Source of the DNA: Acholeplasmataceae bacterium
Lineage (GTDB): Bacteria; Bacillota_I; Bacilli_A; Acholeplasmatales; UBA5453
Direction: 5' to 3'
DNA: 57,164 nucleotides
Assembly (NCBI GenBank): GCA_012837645.1
Contig: DUQU01000016.1
Location: 1 to 57,164, forward strand
A program made the position numbers and the translations under genes. Below the pieces are notes generated by a model, which was given only the letters and a program-made list of their open reading frames with translations, did not search any database and was not told the DNA's origin. Shown in pieces: positions 12,115 to 35,008 of this stretch (its first letter is position 1; each line of letters opens with the position of its first letter).

Positions 12115-13274
12115 GTTTTCGCACCACCTTTGTTTTGATAACCCATTAACATTAAACTAGCTAACATTAATAGACTTGCTAAAATAATGAACAAATAAAA
12201 ATTAATAACCCCATAAAGAACACCAGCTATTGCTGGACCTAAAACCGCCCCTAAAGCTAACGCACTTTGCCGCAGCCCCATTAATGCACCAGTGTTTATC
12301 ACTTTTTGTTCATTTAAATGAGCGATCATCGCTGGTTCATAAACAGTTTTGAATCCAGTATAAACCATAAAAAGCGAAAAGATAAAATAAATAACCCCCT
12401 CTTGAGGTAGAATAAATGTTAAAAAACTAAATAATCCAGCCCCCATAAGACTAATTACCACGATTTTAAGTCCTTGATATTTTCTTAATAAAAAGGGAAC
12501 TACTACTAAAGAAACAAAAATAGTTATAATACCCGTCACGAAATTAACAACTCCAATTGTCGATGTTAAATGGTTTAAATCTGTTAAATAAAGATCTAAA
12601 TAACGGGCAAAACTAATAAAAGAAATGTTGGCTATCATCACCACTATAAACAATAAATATAATCCCTTAGGTAAGGTCTTTATTTCTTTTAAAGCGGGAA
12701 ACAATTTCCTTTTTTCCTGCTTTTGATCTTCTTTATTTTCAAATAAGAAAAATGCTAGTAAAAAAAGTATCATTGAAAAACCAGCTTGTAAATAAAATAT
12801 ATTTTTTAGGTCATCAAAATAATCACCTAATAAACCACCAATCAAATATCCGAAGGAACCTCCCAAGACAACTAAGGCTAAATAAATTGAAAGTTGCGTT
12901 TTTTTATTGTTAATGGGCATTTCTAAAAGGTAAGTAAGAGTTAACACTTGAAAAGAAGCTGTAAAAATACCAGCCGTAAAACGAACTAATAAAATTAAAT
13001 ATTGATTATCAAAATAACCAAATAAAAACTGGCTAAGACCATAACCTAAAAAACCGATACCAATTAAGATACCTTTTGTTTTAGTATTGCCTAAGTTTCC
13101 CCAAAAAGGGGCCGCTAAAAAGATTCCTAAATTCATTGCTGCGAAAAAGAGACCAAAAAAATAGTCATCAACTTTTAAAACTCTTAAATAGGCAGGAGTA
13201 ATTGGATGAACTAAATTAGTAACTAACCCTAATAAAAATGCAAAAAATTGCAAATATATAATTCTTTTAAGCAC
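12111..13274 (-). CDS. MFS-type transporter
   Basis: A 387-aa protein with about 12 membrane helices and a short central cytoplasmic loop (ENKEDQKQEKRKLFP), the major facilitator plan. The second-helix region has APFWGNLGNTKTKG, the loop 2-3 motif of drug/proton antiporters (G-x-L-x-D-x-x-x-x-R-like). This suggests an exporter, but the substrate is unknown. Its ATG shares one base with the mnmA stop, and its TGA overlaps the recD2 start, so translation is coupled through the operon. Confidence 0.82.
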   Translation of the reverse strand: MLKRIIYLQFFAFLLGLVTNLVHPITPAYLRVLKVDDYFFGLFFAAMNLGIFLAAPFWGNLGNTKTKGILIGIGFLGYGLSQFLFGYFDNQYLILLVRFTAGIFTASFQVLTLTYLLEMPINNKKTQLSIYLALVVLGGSFGYLIGGLLGDYFDDLKNIFYLQAGFSMILFLLAFFLFENKEDQKQEKRKLFPALKEIKTLPKGLYLLFIVVMIANISFISFARYLDLYLTDLNHLTSTIGVVNFVTGIITIFVSLVVVPFLLRKYQGLKIVVISLMGAGLFSFLTFILPQEGVIYFIFSLFMVYTGFKTVYEPAMIAHLNEQKVINTGALMGLRQSALALGAVLGPAIAGVLYGVINFYLFIILASLLMLASLMLMGYQNKGGAKT

Positions 13275-14404
13275 TAGTAAAGTCGCCTTTCTTGATCAAA
13301 ATAAACTTGATCGATAAAGCCGCCGCCAACACAAACTTCTCCTTCATAAAAGGCAGCTGCTTGTCCGGGAGTAACAGCTCTTTCTTGGTCTGGATAAATA
13401 ACTTTTAGGGTAGTTTCATCTAACCATTCTAAAGTAACTTTAACATCTTCGCTTCGGTATCTAAATTTTGCTGTAAAGAAGCGGTTTTCCAAGTCTTTAT
13501 CACCTCTAAAAACAACATCTTTTACAATGCAATTATTTGAATATAAATACTCATTATGATAACCTTGGCCGACATATAAAACATTCGCGCTTAAATCTTT
13601 TCCAATCACGAACCATGGTGCTGGTGGATAGTCTTTCAAACCACCAATATCGAGCCCTTTTCGTTGCCCGATCGTATAATTATAAAGCCCATTATGTTCT
13701 TTAATTACTTTACCATCAATTGTCTTCATCAAACCCTTTTGAGCCGGTAAATAATTTGCCAAAAAAAGTTCAAAATCACGTTCTCCAATAAAACAAATTC
13801 CGGTACTATCTTTTTTATCATAAACAGCTAACTTTTGTTGAAAGGCTCGTTCTCGAACTTCTTTTTTAGAAAGTTCACCTATTGGAAATAGAACTCTTTT
13901 TAACTGTTCGCTAGTTAACTGCGATAAAAAATAAGATTGATCTTTGTTGTTGTCTTTTCCTCTTAATAAATGTGTTACGCCAGCTCTTTCTTCTTTTCGA
14001 GCATAGTGTCCCATCGCGATATAATCAGCATCTTTGCTAAAAGCATATTCTAAAAATGATTTAAACTTTATTTCATTATTACATAAAATATCGGGGTTGG
14101 GAGTTCTTCCCTTTTGATATTCTGCTAAAAAATAAGCAAATACCTTTTGCCAATATTCTTTTATAAAATCTATTTTAGTTAATTTAACTTTTAATTTCTT
14201 TGCCACTTTTAAAGCATCTTCATAATCAATCGTTTGAGCGCATTTTTCAAACTTTGAAGTCGGATTCCCTTTAATGTCATTATTAATAGCGGAATCCCAA
14301 TTTTGCATAAAAACAGCTTCGACTTGGTAACCCTTTTCCAACAGCAAAGCTAAGGCGACCGCCGAATCAACTCCCCCTGATAAACCCAGTATTACTTTTT
14401 TCAT
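13274..14404 (-). CDS. mnmA: tRNA-specific 2-thiouridylase
   Basis: A 376-aa enzyme that makes the 2-thio group of U34 in Lys, Glu and Gln tRNAs. The PP-loop ATP motif SGGVDS sits at residues 9-14. The two catalytic cysteines are visible in NPDILCNNEIKF and in STGICFIGERDF, and the C-terminal part carries the conserved GQRKGLDIGG and TPGQAAAFYEGE. Length is standard. The ATG overlaps the nadE stop by four bases. No cysteine desulfurase gene is nearby. Confidence 0.96.
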   Translation of the reverse strand: MKKVILGLSGGVDSAVALALLLEKGYQVEAVFMQNWDSAINNDIKGNPTSKFEKCAQTIDYEDALKVAKKLKVKLTKIDFIKEYWQKVFAYFLAEYQKGRTPNPDILCNNEIKFKSFLEYAFSKDADYIAMGHYARKEERAGVTHLLRGKDNNKDQSYFLSQLTSEQLKRVLFPIGELSKKEVRERAFQQKLAVYDKKDSTGICFIGERDFELFLANYLPAQKGLMKTIDGKVIKEHNGLYNYTIGQRKGLDIGGLKDYPPAPWFVIGKDLSANVLYVGQGYHNEYLYSNNCIVKDVVFRGDKDLENRFFTAKFRYRSEDVKVTLEWLDETTLKVIYPDQERAVTPGQAAAFYEGEVCVGGGFIDQVYFDQERRLY

Positions 14405-16215
14405 TCACTGTCACTAGCCATTTTAAAATGATTACGAGCGGAAAGAGATAATTCTGTGACTTGAGGTCCGTCAGGAATAACTTGCCTTTTAAACTGGGCG
14501 GTTTTAAAACGTTTTAAAAAGGATTTAACAAAGGATTCTGCTGCCTTGTTTTCGTAGGAGAAAGCTTCTTTTAATAAAAATATTAACCGTTTTTCACTAT
14601 CCCCACAAACTAAATGACGATAAATTAAAAAATCATTTATTAAATAACTACCTACTATTTCTTCAGAATATTGATTATCTTTTAACTCTGGTGAAATCGG
14701 TGTTTGCAAAATACTGACAACTACATCATATAAATGAGGATAATAACTAAGATATTCTTTGAGATGACGTTGAACCATTGTTTTTGGCAACCCAGCGTTT
14801 ATCGCATACATACTCATTTGATCAGCATTGTATGTCATAAATCCCAAAGCAATTTCAGAAAGATTTCCCGTTCCTAAAACAATACCATGGTGCTTATTTG
14901 CTAAGTTCATCAAAGTTTGAGTTCTGATTCGCGCTTGAACATTTTCATAAGTAACATCAGTTTTGTTATCATGAGCAATCATTTTAAGTTGTTCTTCAAC
15001 TTCAACATCGATATTTATTTCTTGGAAAGGCACCGCTAACGCTTTGATTAAAGTAAGAGCATTTTGGTAAGTTTTTTCACTAGTATGAACGCTTGGCATT
15101 ACCACAGCCATTATTTTTTCTTTACTTAAATTCATTTTATTAATCGTATCATAAGCTACCAAAAGAGCCAAGCTAGAATCCAATCCTCCCGAAACACCAA
15201 TAATTATACGAGGATTATTTAAATGCTTGATTCTTTTTTCTAAAGCTTTGGTTTGAATAAATCGAACAGCCTCAAAATCATAATCGACTAAAAAAGGTAT
15301 TTGAGCAATTTTACTATCAAAAGTAAAATCATCATCAGTACTAATAGCCACTTTAATAATTTTATAATTATTTAAATTATTTTTCTTTTTATTAGCTTTC
15401 CGGCGACGATACTCTATCTCTTTTAAATCAAGATCTGATGTTAAACGATTTTTAAGATCATAAACACTTTTATTTTCTATCCGCCCAAAAACGGCATGAT
15501 AATGAAAACCACTATAAAGACCATCACCAGTAGATTCATCATTACTACTAGCTAAAAACAAATAAGCTCCCTCATATAAAAATGACTTCGCTTTAACATT
15601 AGTTTCAATAATTTTATCGAGTCCTAAATAAGCTAAATTTGTCGATAGATTAATAATTAGATTAGCACCATTTAAATAAAGTTCTTCACCGCTTGTAGTT
15701 AGCTCGCTAACATTATTATTAAACTCAAAACCAAAACTAACATTGTGATCTTCTGCTTTAAAAATAAGATTATTAAGAGGAACTTCCTGTCCTAAAATAG
15801 TAACTTTATCACTCGCTAATTCTAAACTACTTTTAAACCATCTGCTTTCATTAAAAAAGTTATTATTAACTAAATCTTTTTTAACAATAGCACCTAAAAT
15901 AACATCTTTTTGAAAAACAACCAAGACATTATACAACTCACTATTTATTATTAAAGGCATGCCAAGAGCGATAATTTTATTAAACTTCTCTTTTAATAAA
16001 CCATTTAAAGCCCTTAAAGACTCATCATACAATTGTTCTTGATAAAACAAGTCTCCGCATGAATAACCAGTTAAAGATAATTCTGGAAAAACAAGCAAAG
16101 AAGCCTTATTTCTTTTTATTTCCTCTTTGATAATCTCACCATTTAAAATTGGCTTTCCCACTTTAATTGCAGGTGAAATTGTAGAAACTTTTAAAAAACC
16201 TTCTTTAAACATCAT
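14401..16215 (-). CDS. nadE: NAD+ synthetase of glutamine-dependent type with altered glutaminase site
   Basis: A 604-aa two-domain NadE: an N-terminal nitrilase-fold glutaminase (about residues 1-270) and a C-terminal synthetase with PP-loop GVSGGLDSS. It makes NAD+ from NaAD. In the glutaminase domain, the catalytic Glu (FPE, residue 45) and Lys (residue 112 in IVKKDL) are kept. The nucleophilic Cys of the usual FGVEICEDLW segment is replaced: here the aligned stretch is FGFEFNNNVS with Asn at position 166. The flanks align well (FKA before, ANLIINLS after), so this is a substitution, not a misread domain. The enzyme probably cannot use glutamine and may depend on free ammonia. It follows nadD, the enzyme before it in the pathway. 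The start can be either of two adjacent ATGs. Confidence 0.92.
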   Translation of the reverse strand: MMFKEGFLKVSTISPAIKVGKPILNGEIIKEEIKRNKASLLVFPELSLTGYSCGDLFYQEQLYDESLRALNGLLKEKFNKIIALGMPLIINSELYNVLVVFQKDVILGAIVKKDLVNNNFFNESRWFKSSLELASDKVTILGQEVPLNNLIFKAEDHNVSFGFEFNNNVSELTTSGEELYLNGANLIINLSTNLAYLGLDKIIETNVKAKSFLYEGAYLFLASSNDESTGDGLYSGFHYHAVFGRIENKSVYDLKNRLTSDLDLKEIEYRRRKANKKKNNLNNYKIIKVAISTDDDFTFDSKIAQIPFLVDYDFEAVRFIQTKALEKRIKHLNNPRIIIGVSGGLDSSLALLVAYDTINKMNLSKEKIMAVVMPSVHTSEKTYQNALTLIKALAVPFQEINIDVEVEEQLKMIAHDNKTDVTYENVQARIRTQTLMNLANKHHGIVLGTGNLSEIALGFMTYNADQMSMYAINAGLPKTMVQRHLKEYLSYYPHLYDVVVSILQTPISPELKDNQYSEEIVGSYLINDFLIYRHLVCGDSEKRLIFLLKEAFSYENKAAESFVKSFLKRFKTAQFKRQVIPDGPQVTELSLSARNHFKMASDSE

Positions 16216-16783
16216 TATTTACCCCATATAAATTATGCTTTAAAATATATTCATAAACCTTTTTATCTAATAAATCCGCTTCCGTTTTTGGATTAGAACG
16301 AAAGTGAGAACTCGATAAAGGCAAATTACAGTTTACAATTGTGAAGTTATCTTTTTGAGAAGGAAAATTATTGTTAATATATTTCTCAATTAAAATATTA
16401 TCTCTTTTGACAACTATCAATTTAAACTCTTTAATAATTTTTTCATAGTCAACCCATTTATTAATGTAAAGCAAGTTATCAGCGCCTAATAAAAAGTAGA
16501 CATCTTCTTGATATAATTCTTTTATTTGTAAGAGACTTTGATAAGTACCTTCATAGTTTTCTTTGTTTTCTAAAGATGAAACTTGATATATTTTTTCCTT
16601 AAAAACCAACTTTAACATTTCTTGACGCAAAGAAAAATCAACAAAATCTTTTTTCCACGTATAAGAATCTCCCGTAGGTAAAACAATTATTTTTGTTGGC
16701 TTAAATAACGATTTAATTTTTTCCGCAATTTCTTTATGGGCTTTCGTAGGCGGATTAAAGGTCCCTCCAAATACAACTATCAT
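16205..16783 (-). CDS. nadD: Nicotinate-nucleotide adenylyltransferase
   Basis: A 192-aa nucleotidyltransferase that converts NaMN and ATP to NaAD, the substrate of the next gene, nadE. The N-terminal motif is GGTFNPPTKAH, where T-x-x-H stands for the usual (H/T)xGH with Gly replaced by Ala. The adenylate motif near the end is SSSHFRSNP, in place of ISSTxIR. LLGADNLLYI is the conserved substrate loop. The ATG at 16783 is chosen because AAGGTGG precedes it; an in-frame GTG at 16792 overlaps that ribosome site. The stop lies inside the start of nadE. First gene of the operon. Some NadDs carry a C-terminal HD hydrolase, but this one does not. Confidence 0.92.
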   Translation of the reverse strand: MIVVFGGTFNPPTKAHKEIAEKIKSLFKPTKIIVLPTGDSYTWKKDFVDFSLRQEMLKLVFKEKIYQVSSLENKENYEGTYQSLLQIKELYQEDVYFLLGADNLLYINKWVDYEKIIKEFKLIVVKRDNILIEKYINNNFPSQKDNFTIVNCNLPLSSSHFRSNPKTEADLLDKKVYEYILKHNLYGVNNDV

Positions 16784-16859
16784 AAACACCACCTTTAATT
16801 ATATCACAACTTCCAATAAAAATATTATGTTATAATATTCCTAACTAGGAGATTTGATA

Positions 16860-30817: not shown

Positions 30818-32256
30818 TTATTCTAAATCACTATATTTTAAAATTGGCTTCCTTACTGCTAAAACCTCATCCAATCTTCTTACTACCGTTCTATGTGGTG
30901 CTGATTTGACTATTTCTGGATTTTCTCGAGCTTCTTTAGCAATTACTTTCATTATTTCAATAAAATGATCTAAAGTTTCTTTTGATTCGGTTTCCACTGG
31001 TTCAATCATCATCGCTTCTTTAACTATCAATGGAAAATAGATAGTAGGAGGATGAACCCCGTAGTCTAATAATCTTTTCGCGATATCCAACGTCTTGACA
31101 CCTGAACTTTTATCTATTAACCCATCAAAAACAACTTCATGCATACAAATCTTATCTACCGCTAATAAATAATCATCTTTTAATGATTCTTTAAGATAAT
31201 TAGTATTTAAAACGGCTAATTTACCTAAGTTTTTAATCTTATTCCCTAGGGTCTTTAAATAAGCATTAGTTTTAACAACGACACTAAAGTTTCCAAAAAA
31301 CTGTCCCACTTTGCCGATTGAATGTTTAGGCTCTAAAAAACGATACTCTTCATCTTCTTTAATAACTACAGGACCTGGTAAATAATCTTTTAAATGACTC
31401 ACTACACCAACTGGACCAGCACCGGGACCACCGCCGCCATGGGGGGTGGAAAATGTTTTATGAACATTTAAATGAATAATATCAAAGCCCATCATTCCTG
31501 GCTTGGCAACACCAAGTAATGGATTTAAATTAGCTCCATCGTAATATAGTAAACCACCAATATCATGAATGAGTTTTGACATCGTTAAAATATCGGGTTC
31601 AAAAATTCCTAATGTATTAGGATTGGTAAGCATAATCCCCGCTATTTCATCGGATAAAACAGACTTCAAAGAATCGATATTAACGGTTCCGTCTGGGTTA
31701 GACTTAACTTCAATTACATCAAAGCCGGCCACTGCTGCACTAGCTGGATTAGTCCCATGAGCAGAATCGGGAACAATTATTTTAGTTCTTTTATAATCTT
31801 CTCTTAATTGATGATATTTTTTAATTATCCAAAGTCCAACTAATTCACCATGAGCTCCAGCAAAAGGAGCGAAAGTAAAATTATCCATTCCTGTTACATC
31901 CGCTAACATCCTATCGGTTTCATAAATTACTTCTAAAGCGCCTTGAGCATATTGCGGTGGCGTTAAAGGATGAATATTATGAAAACCAGGTAAATTAGCA
32001 ATTGCTTCATTAATTTTAGGATTATATTTCATTGTACAAGAACCTAAAGGATAAAACCGGTATCAACACCAAAGTTTTTTTGGCTAAGGTTAGTATAATG
32101 TCTAACGACATCCGGCTCAGAGGCTTCAGGTAAATTAAGCGCTTCTTCTCTTAATAATTGTTGGGGTAAATTCGCTAAATTATTAGTCTCAATATTAAGA
32201 TCATGACCTCTTCTTCCTTTTTTAGAAATTTCAAATATTAATTTATCGTAACTCAT
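30818..32256 (-). pseudogene. gcvPB: Glycine dehydrogenase (decarboxylating) subunit 2, frameshifted
   Basis: The C-terminal half of the P-protein, which binds PLP and releases CO2 from glycine. The PLP lysine motif [14 protein letters not shown] is intact. The frame breaks near 32044-32055: after GVDTGF the sequence should read [21 protein letters not shown] is present, but one base back, and adding one T to the four-T run there restores the frame. The restored length is 480 codons, normal for GcvPB. As read, the first frame stops after 70 residues; the second (404 aa) can restart at ATG 32032. A one-base change in a homopolymer is the most common sequencing error, and the rest of the operon is intact, so an artefact is quite possible. 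The ATG at 32256 has GAGGTG and overlaps gcvPA. Confidence 0.85.
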
Positions 32257-33556
32257 CAATCATCACCTCAACAAATTTATCAATTGCTTTTTTAGGGTAT
32301 TTTTCCGTTACTGCAAATAATAATTTATCTTTCGCAATCGGAAGCCCTATTAAATATCCTTTTTTCAACATCTTTTCTTCAAATTTAAAAGCATCAAATT
32401 TAGTTTTTATTACAAACTCTTTTAAAAAGGGACCTTCATAAGCCGCTTCAAAATAACCAGTTTTTAACAATTCATTATACAAATAATGGCTGTTTGTATA
32501 GGAAGCTTCATTTACCTTAACCAAACCGTCTTTACCCATTAAGGCAGTATACATAACAACCCAAAGTGCCATCAGCGACTGATTGGAACAAATATTTGAG
32601 TTAGCTTTTTCTCTTCTAATATGTTGCTCGCGCGCTTGAAGAGTTAAAACAAAAGCTCTCTTACCATCAACGTCTTTAGTAACGCCGCAAATTCTTCCTG
32701 GCATCTTTCTTACTAATTTTTTAGTTGTCGCCAAATATCCTACATATGGACCTCCAAATTGAAGTGGGATTCCCAAAGGTTGGGCTTCACCAACAGCGAT
32801 ATCAGCTCCATTTGAAAAAGGAGATTTTAAAACAGCTAAAGTTTGAGGGTCACTATTAATAATGAAAAGTCCTCCTTTTTCCTTAATTACATCAGAAAAA
32901 CCATTATAATCCTCAATCAAGCCATAATAATTTGGAGATTGCACAATAACTCCAGCAAAATCGTTTTCATTTTTGATAAAATCTAACGATGGATAACCTG
33001 CCTTTTCTTCAATTTCAACAACATCAATATCGCGATATTGAGCATAAGTTTTAACCACTTTAATCGTTTCCGGATGAACGGTTTTACTTATTAAAACTTT
33101 CTTCCTTTTCGTGTGACTAACAGCCATCAACATCGCTTCCGCAGTTGAAGTCGCTCCATCATACATCGAGGCATTGGCAACTTCCATCCCCGTTAATTCA
33201 GCAATAAAAGATTGAAACTCAAATATATATTGTAGCGTTCCTTGCGATATTTCTGGTTGATATGGTGTATATGAAGTTAAAAACTCACTTCTGGATACTA
33301 AATTATAAATCATTGCTGGAGTGTAGTGATCATACGCCCCTGCCCCTCTAAAGATTTTTAAATTAGCATTTTTTTGAGCTTTTTCACCCATCTCTAATAG
33401 TAATTGATGTTCGCTAAGCGGTTCTTTTAAGTTATACTCTAACTTTTCTTTTATTTCCTGAGGAACATCAACAAATAAGTCATCTAAAGATTTAACATTA
33501 ATGACTTTTAACATTTGCTCGATATCTTCTTTAGTATGAGGAAAATATTTAAACAT
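32243..33556 (-). CDS. gcvPA: Glycine dehydrogenase (decarboxylating) subunit 1
   Basis: The 437-aa N-terminal half of the P-protein of the glycine cleavage system, forming the enzyme with GcvPB. Typical stretches are FPHTKEDIEQML, GAYDHYTPAMI, SRSEFLTSYTPYQPEISQG, ANASMYDGATSTAEA and RKMPGRICGVTKDVDGKRAFVLTLQAREQHIRREKA (given here by its ends). Length is normal and no lesion is seen. It lies three bases after gcvH, and its end overlaps the gcvPB start. Confidence 0.95.
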   Translation of the reverse strand: MFKYFPHTKEDIEQMLKVINVKSLDDLFVDVPQEIKEKLEYNLKEPLSEHQLLLEMGEKAQKNANLKIFRGAGAYDHYTPAMIYNLVSRSEFLTSYTPYQPEISQGTLQYIFEFQSFIAELTGMEVANASMYDGATSTAEAMLMAVSHTKRKKVLISKTVHPETIKVVKTYAQYRDIDVVEIEEKAGYPSLDFIKNENDFAGVIVQSPNYYGLIEDYNGFSDVIKEKGGLFIINSDPQTLAVLKSPFSNGADIAVGEAQPLGIPLQFGGPYVGYLATTKKLVRKMPGRICGVTKDVDGKRAFVLTLQAREQHIRREKANSNICSNQSLMALWVVMYTALMGKDGLVKVNEASYTNSHYLYNELLKTGYFEAAYEGPFLKEFVIKTKFDAFKFEEKMLKKGYLIGLPIAKDKLLFAVTEKYPKKAIDKFVEVMIDELR

Positions 33557-33559
33557 CTT

Positions 33560-33913
33560 TTACGCCTCTTCGTATTCTGCTGGTTTTAATAATGATTTTA
33601 ATTCTTCTTCATCAAAATCTTCAATCTCAATAATAAATTCATTTAAAGGATCTTCATTTAACAATTCTGGTTCATCTTCTAATTTTTCATTTACTTTAGA
33701 AATTTTACCACCAATAGGCATGTTTAAGTCGCTAGCTGCCTTTACTGATTCGATCGCTCCAAAAGCTTCATCTTTATCAAATTGATCGCCAACACTAGGT
33801 AAATCTAAATAAACGATATCTCCTAATTCTTCAGCTGCTTTTTTAGAAATTCCAATTAAAGCCTTTTTGCCCTCTACTTTAATCCATTCATCTGTTTTTG
33901 TATAAAATCTCAT
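33560..33913 (-). CDS. gcvH: Glycine cleavage system H protein
   Basis: A 117-aa lipoyl carrier that shuttles the aminomethyl group between P-, T- and L-proteins. The lipoylated lysine lies in GAIESVKAASDLNMP. The acidic C-terminus and the N-terminal YTKTDEWIKVEGKKALIGIS are typical. A GAGGTGG ribosome site precedes the ATG. The lplA-like gene at the head of this operon could attach its lipoate. Confidence 0.95.
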   Translation of the reverse strand: MRFYTKTDEWIKVEGKKALIGISKKAAEELGDIVYLDLPSVGDQFDKDEAFGAIESVKAASDLNMPIGGKISKVNEKLEDEPELLNEDPLNEFIIEIEDFDEEELKSLLKPAEYEEA

Positions 33914-33931
33914 TTCTTTCCACCTCTTCTT

Positions 33932-35008
33932 TTATTTTTTTAAATATCTTTTACTTCTAATCCGTGCTTTTACACGCTTGTTTCTAATTCCAATTTCTAC
34001 TACACTACCATTTTTATAGTTAGCATTTATTAAGGCATTAGCATAAGTATCCTTAGTCCCGGGAATCATAAAACCACTAGTAATGTAGCCTATTTTTTCC
34101 TCTCCATCATAAAGGGGATAGCCTTGTCTCGCCACTCCTCGCTCTAATAAAACTAATCCCACTACTCTTTTAGTTTGAGCCGCTTTTATTTTTAGTAAAG
34201 CACCTTTGCCGATAAAGTCTTCTTTTTCAAAATCAATAGCAAAATTAAGTCCCGCTTCTACCGGAGAAATAAAGTTTGTTATTTCATGACCGAAAAGTGG
34301 TAACCCAGCTTCAAATCTTAAAGTATCGCGAGCGCCTAAACCAGCTGGAACGACACCAACATCTAACAATTGAACAGTTAATTTATAAATTTCACTAGTT
34401 GATCCATAAACCTCAAAACCATCCTCTCCAGTGTAACCACTTCGAGAAACAATCAAGTTGTCTAATTTTGTAAAAGTTAAATATTTTAAATCGATTTCAC
34501 CTAAGACTTTAGAAAGCATCTTTAAAGATTCTGGTCCTTGAATACTAATAACCGCAACCTCTTCACCTTCATCAATTATTTCAGCTTCAAACTTCTTTTC
34601 TTTTAAAACAGCATTTAAATGTTCATATACAACTTCTTGGTTAGAAGCATTGCAAACAAGCCATAAATCTTCGCTATTAAACTTGTAAACGAGCATATCA
34701 TCGATTACTCCACCGCTTTCTAAACAAAAAATATGATACTGAATTTGCTTGTCGTTGATCTTTTTAATATTATTAGTAGAAACATAATTTAAAAAGTCGC
34801 TCGCTTCTTTACCTTTTATTCTAATTTCTCCCATATGAGAAACGTCGAATAACCCTGCCTTAGTTCTCACCGCTTGATGCTCATAAACAATACCCTCTTT
34901 AAAATTAACCGGCATGTAATAACCACCAAACTCCGTAAAATTAGCACCCATTTCTTTAAAAATTGGATACAATGGGGTTGTTTTTAACCCAAATGGTACA
35001 TCCTTCAT
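33932..35008 (-). CDS. gcvT: Glycine cleavage system T protein (aminomethyltransferase)
   Basis: A 358-aa enzyme that transfers the methylene group from H-protein to tetrahydrofolate and releases ammonia. Conserved segments: FGGYYMPVNF, GLFDVSHMGEI, VSRSGYTGEDGFEVY, LGARDTLRFEAGLPLFGHE and ISPVEAGL. Length is normal. It depends on folate, so the broken folE at 4.1 kb would imply folate uptake or another pterin source. The ribosome site is GGGAGG. It is five bases after lplA. Confidence 0.95.
   Translation of the reverse strand: MKDVPFGLKTTPLYPIFKEMGANFTEFGGYYMPVNFKEGIVYEHQAVRTKAGLFDVSHMGEIRIKGKEASDFLNYVSTNNIKKINDKQIQYHIFCLESGGVIDDMLVYKFNSEDLWLVCNASNQEVVYEHLNAVLKEKKFEAEIIDEGEEVAVISIQGPESLKMLSKVLGEIDLKYLTFTKLDNLIVSRSGYTGEDGFEVYGSTSEIYKLTVQLLDVGVVPAGLGARDTLRFEAGLPLFGHEITNFISPVEAGLNFAIDFEKEDFIGKGALLKIKAAQTKRVVGLVLLERGVARQGYPLYDGEEKIGYITSGFMIPGTKDTYANALINANYKNGSVVEIGIRNKRVKARIRSKRYLKK

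Follow-up and report, generated by a model that had tools for sequence, protein, structure and literature searches.

The only NAD synthetase (NadE) encoded in the genome represented by the window (the whole 57,164-nucleotide stretch of DNA that was analysed) is probably an ammonia-dependent enzyme, a descendant of the two-domain, glutamine-type NadE in which a dead nitrilase domain has been kept as the core of the oligomer. In such an enzyme NAD would be made from deamido-NAD, ATP, and free ammonia. The ammonia would reach the synthetase site directly, and glutamine would not be its source. The nitrilase-like domain would be catalytically dead, having lost the coupling between a Glu of the YRE loop and a Lys of the ammonia tunnel, and the reason for its retention would be that the octamer of two-domain NadE is built around a glutaminase core.

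The nadE gene occupies an open frame on the minus strand with bounds of exactly 14401-16215. It is overlapped by the upstream nadD, and mnmA comes next downstream:

16205-16792, minus strand: nadD, for the previous step of NAD synthesis, upstream in the nadE operon (Pfam CTP_transf_like; conserved order)
14401-16215, minus strand: nadE, two-domain NAD synthetase, 604 aa (open frame, translation, NF002730, Pfam)
13274-14404, minus strand: mnmA, tRNA 2-thiouridylase, next gene downstream of nadE (Pfam tRNA_Me_trans; conserved order)

The nadD-nadE-mnmA order recurs across the family; thus, this nadE is the orthologue rather than an additional copy. Since a search of the genome also found it to be the sole NAD synthetase gene, an essential step must go through its product. 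The protein has the fused architecture, with a nitrilase-type N-terminal and an NAD synthetase C-terminal portion, and M. tuberculosis NadE can be aligned along its whole length. It narrowly passes the NCBI model for NAD(+) synthase, NF002730 (482.6 bits against a cut-off of 473). The Pfam NAD_synthase match is strong (115.8 bits), and the CN_hydrolase match (30.5 bits) takes in residues 31-113 only, a fragment of the domain. An AlphaFold model built from three sequences had a mean pLDDT of 46.6 and was set aside. The initial annotation of this DNA had proposed derivation from a glutamine-dependent form, and both synteny and phylogeny bear this out.

Within the N-terminal half, the following features can be placed (M. 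tuberculosis residues in parentheses):

15391-16215, minus strand: nitrilase-like glutaminase domain, residues 1-275, catalytically degenerate (13/40 conserved positions changed; alignment to M. tuberculosis NadE)
16081-16083, minus strand: Glu45, the kept catalytic Glu (Glu52; alignment)
15880-15882, minus strand: Lys112, the kept catalytic Lys (Lys121; alignment)
15856-15858, minus strand: Phe120, replacing the YRE-loop Glu (Glu129, partner of the tunnel Lys; alignment, literature)
15718-15720, minus strand: Asn166, codon AAT, replacing the nucleophile Cys (Cys176; alignment)
15712-15717, minus strand: Asn167-Asn168, equivalents of Glu177 and Asp178, the latter invariant in 184 Cys-retaining proteins
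15706-15708, minus strand: Ser170, replacing the Trp/Phe glutamine gate (Phe180; alignment)
15637-15639, minus strand: Asn193, replacing an invariant Ser (Ser203; alignment)

From 160 genomes scanned in the order and 395 in the class, 195 two-domain NadE proteins were aligned, after phytoplasma-like sequences, fragments, and duplicates had been removed. The nucleophile Cys is kept in 184 and lacking in 11, among them the window protein with its Asn. All 184 also have Glu52, Lys121, Asp178, Ser203, and Lys209, which excludes misalignment or chance. As had been read from the motifs, the Cys of FGVEICEDLW is Asn166 in FGFEFNNNVS, which sits in the Cys176 column; Glu45 and Lys112 do remain, and the domain is kept in full. 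The Glu-Lys-Cys triad is thus incomplete. There is no other Cys at the site. Cys53, a candidate substitute nucleophile, was rejected, since it is common to relatives that also keep the nucleophile. The NadE of a species of the same genus reads EICNDMW, with the Cys in place, and wherever else in the family the gene is complete, its product keeps the Cys too.

The decay is broader than the initial annotation had described and extends across the domain. With conservation in ≥93% of the Cys-retaining proteins of the order as the threshold, 40 glutaminase-half and 72 synthetase-half positions qualify; the window protein is changed at 13 of the former and 6 of the latter. In Cys-retaining proteins the glutaminase positions show a median of 0 changes (maximum 6) and the synthetase positions a median of 1 (maximum 7). 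The changes strike the glutamine site (Asp178, Trp/Phe180, and Ser203) and the YRE loop (Glu129), and Lys209 (all M. tuberculosis numbering) is lost as well. At the level of sequence, then, glutaminase chemistry is lost in its nucleophile, its glutamine-site residues, and its YRE loop.

A local frameshift or sequencing error behind Asn166 was rejected because conserved positions are lost domain-wide. A wider suspicion, that nadE is a decaying pseudogene or Asn166 an assembly error, draws on the representation of the species by a single genome (n = 1) in one fragmented assembly, and on the nearby gcvPB, which is frameshifted at a T run. However, the frame is fully open, the synthetase motifs are intact, the gene order is conserved, and no other NAD synthetase is encoded; in addition, the changes span the domain rather than one base, and there are seven other independent cases of Cys loss. 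Decay or error is thus highly improbable.

The synthetase half contains:

14404-15252, minus strand: synthetase domain, residues 322-604, active-site motifs intact (6/72 conserved positions changed; motifs)
15175-15192, minus strand: SGGLDS ATP-pyrophosphatase motif, residues 342-347 (motif alignment)
14461-14463, minus strand: Gln585, replacing the conserved ammonia-tunnel Lys (Lys644; alignment, motifs, literature)

The description of this half as canonical in the initial annotation is correct for the active-site motifs but not for the tunnel. The extended C-terminal loop, which contacts the glutaminase domain in glutamine-dependent NadE (PMC3376133), can be aligned to its end, and the conserved tunnel Lys within it is Gln585. 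Glu129 has been reported to be hydrogen-bonded to Lys644, which sits where the ammonia tunnel narrows at constriction 2A (PMC6946656). In the alignment both partners of this pair are gone from the window protein (Phe120 and Gln585), a double loss that would be expected to remove the coupling between glutaminase and synthetase.

The suggested look for a separate glutaminase yielded none of the nitrilase type or of PF04960 in the genome: nadE itself is the only CN_hydrolase match, so that there is no separate nitrilase-type subunit. The only PF00117 protein has a 557-aa frame, the size of CTP synthase. Two-subunit NAD synthetases do exist (PMC3376133), and two Cys-less genomes of genus g97 (G247 and G467) contain a stand-alone nitrilase of 274-278 aa; a glutaminase subunit that docks on NadE and supplies glutamine nitrogen in trans is nevertheless quite unlikely here, given the genome content just described and the disappearance of the tunnel-coupling residues. 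From the loss of the glutaminase site and the lack of a substitute subunit among the families searched, the window NadE is probably dependent on ammonia. The stand-alone proteins of the g97 Cys-to-Asn genomes (G247:C29:235-969 and G467:C67:45725-46459) are of the nitrilase family and could be either unrelated amidases or separate glutaminases.

Two-domain NAD synthetases also take free ammonia, but their Km for it can be high, as in human NadE, for which it is 42 mM (PMC6946656). Neither glutamine synthetase nor an Amt transporter was found in the genome. Both are also missing from close Cys-retaining relatives; thus, their absence does not discriminate. Glycine cleavage is an ammonia-releasing reaction, and the window contains an operon for it (30818-35008). 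The operon was rejected as a special ammonia source, since it is widespread in the order, most Cys-retaining relatives have it, and the Cys-less G025 and G159 have no match. Within it, gcvPB (30818-32260, minus strand) has its first ~75 codons in another frame, with the break at the T run; the shift is either genuine or an assembly artefact.

The other Cys-less proteins carry various residues at the nucleophile position. G159 has Asp, with Glu52 changed to Lys and Lys121 to Glu; G495 has Ser, with Glu52 changed to Ala and Lys121 to Asn. The three species of genus g8 have Asp, Asp, and Gly, the two of genus g97 both have Asn, and G163, G291, and G301 each have Gly. On a tree of 132 synthetase domains, from which the Lys644 column was excluded, the Cys state needs 8 changes, all 8 forced by well-supported branches. 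Thus, Cys has been lost independently at least eight times in the sampled members of the class. Some losses look young, such as that in G301, in which Cys and Ser203 are lost and the remainder is mostly kept; there (L235, on G301:C8) Cys has become Gly, Ser203 has become Cys, and the other glutaminase motifs are intact, apparently a very recent event.

Several residues tend to be lost along with Cys. In eight independent pairs the Trp180 gate was lost with it in seven (sign test, p 0.016), and the YRE Glu and Ser203 in six each (p 0.031 for either); the reverse was never seen. None of the 184 Cys-retaining proteins has lost Lys644 (Lys in 181, Arg in 3). Its loss accompanies that of Cys in all three lineages of the order, where per-lineage rates predict ~0.07 synthetase positions changed in all three by chance. 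The idea that Lys644 is always lost together with Cys was rejected, since class-wide this holds in only 3-4 of the 8 independent pairs (sign test, p 0.125-0.25). Taken alone, the loss of Lys644 in the three lineages of the order is suggestive only.

The retained Glu45 and Lys112, together with purifying selection in the dead lineages, might indicate that the domain is still, or has become, a hydrolase of another kind, whose nucleophile or substrate differs. However, because the site residue varies (Asn, Asp, Gly, or Ser) and Glu or Lys is also lost in some lineages, no new conserved site is visible, and several further glutamine-site residues are gone. Such an activity is very unlikely, and a catalytically dead domain attached to an ammonia-using synthetase is still the favored interpretation.

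Two other kinds of NadE were observed. In L067/L220 (G100:C1:845900-848600, a one-contig genome) the nucleophile Cys is kept, the catalytic Glu is absent from the N-terminal frame, and SGGLDY stands in place of SGGLDS, through either decay or sequencing error. In genus g20 of the same order (G104, G107, and others) some species have only a short NadE of ~240-260 aa instead of the two-domain protein, which suggests that ammonia use has also been reached via gene replacement.

Deletion of the glutaminase domain was not seen in any of the 11 Cys-less proteins, whose frames are 596-640 aa long. The ratio of glutaminase to synthetase change has a median of 2.33 in Cys-less and 1.18 in Cys-retaining proteins (p = 1.7e-4), and along the end branch of the window NadE the glutaminase half has a value of 1.31 against 0.54 for the synthetase half. 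Faster change of the glutaminase half after Cys loss is what relaxed constraint would be expected to produce. For pairs in which both species are Cys-less, the dead domain has dN/dS values of 0.14 (L062-L063), 0.22 (L167-L176), and 0.43 (L062-L064), and the glutaminase domain in Cys-retaining pairs has values of roughly 0.04-0.18; these estimates are rough, with synonymous sites near saturation in some pairs. The dead domain in the Cys-less pairs is relaxed yet far below neutral, and purifying selection persists, as measured in lineages other than that of the window species, which has no close relative.

The core of octameric NadE is a double layer of glutaminase tetramers, and the synthetase units lie at the edges (PMC6946656). 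The most economical explanation would therefore be that the dead domain is kept as a structural oligomer core. The initial annotation had offered structure or regulation as the reason for retention. Non-catalytic retention agrees with the purifying selection and with eight losses accompanied by no deletion; for regulation no evidence emerged. In some regulated enzymes, such as CPS1, a dead glutaminase (GATase) domain can be important, and continued purifying selection would also be compatible with a domain whose main role is allosteric, sensing a ligand such as glutamine or ammonium and thereby gating the synthetase. However, the residues that were lost are those of the glutamine site and the YRE loop, the very ones that carry signals between the sites, and a sensor is accordingly given little probability. 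Retention as an oligomer core thus remains the preferred reading.

The reverse arrangement is found in genus g15 of the same order (L034-L061), whose genomes of 0.3-0.9 Mb are, by inference from their size and from the position of the genus in the order, phytoplasma-like. All 27 of the 27 readable g15 proteins keep the glutaminase residues, Glu129, and Lys644. Their synthetase half, by contrast, differs at 46-53 of the 72 conserved positions and has lost the SGGxDS site; Pfam NAD_synthase was absent in both of the two tested. A search of 14 g15 genomes for a second NAD synthetase was negative: the matches were either weak and next to nadE, where mnmA lies, or elsewhere with low scores. Phytoplasma NadE is listed in a review as a glutamine-dependent NAD synthetase and as their only NAD-making protein (PMC3322544). 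The g15 residues show what would be the mirror image of the window case, a glutaminase that is intact and a synthetase that is destroyed. A joint reading would hold that NadE of small-genome Bacilli has repeatedly become an ammonia enzyme, its glutaminase killed and never discarded, that the dead domain has acquired a new function, for instance sensing for regulation or funnelling ammonia in, and that the phytoplasma-like "NadE" is a glutaminase no longer making NAD. Taken as a whole, this combination is unlikely.

These losses matter for annotation, which reads a fused glutaminase domain as glutamine use; the window protein passes the NCBI NAD(+) synthase model. With at least eight independent losses in one class, the fused-domain rule fails repeatedly. 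The losses also constitute a natural experiment, in which residues that decay with the nucleophile and residues that stay separate glutamine chemistry from assembly, and their pattern suggests that the coupling involves the Glu129-Lys644 contact. A family study from 2012 classes fused NadE as glutamine-utilising (PMC3376133), and no mention of inactive glutaminase domains was found in its main text. Nor was a description of a Cys-less two-domain NadE found in the open-access literature, subscription papers having been mostly outside the search.

Compared with the octameric NadE-Gln exemplified by M. tuberculosis NadE (NF002730/PRK02628), the window protein has the same two domains, a full-length alignment, the synthetase motifs, and the extended C-terminal loop, but lacks the nucleophile Cys, several glutamine-site residues, the YRE-loop Glu, and the tunnel Lys. 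It is a descendant of the glutamine-dependent family that fails the family's catalytic triad. With the single-domain NadE-NH3 (type N; PMC3376133) it would share the predicted use of free ammonia. Type N consists of the synthetase alone, with no glutaminase domain or extended loop, whereas the window protein, at 604 aa, has a 275-residue N-terminal domain and the C-terminal loop and falls outside the short family. It also differs from types C and R, the two-subunit, glutamine-utilising enzymes, whose separate nitrilase-type subunit is absent from the window genome. The closest functional parallel is human CPS1, an amidotransferase in which the glutaminase Cys is replaced (Ser294), the dead domain is kept, and free ammonia is used (PMC4655335). 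CPS1 belongs to an unrelated protein family, and its glutaminase is of class I rather than the nitrilase type.
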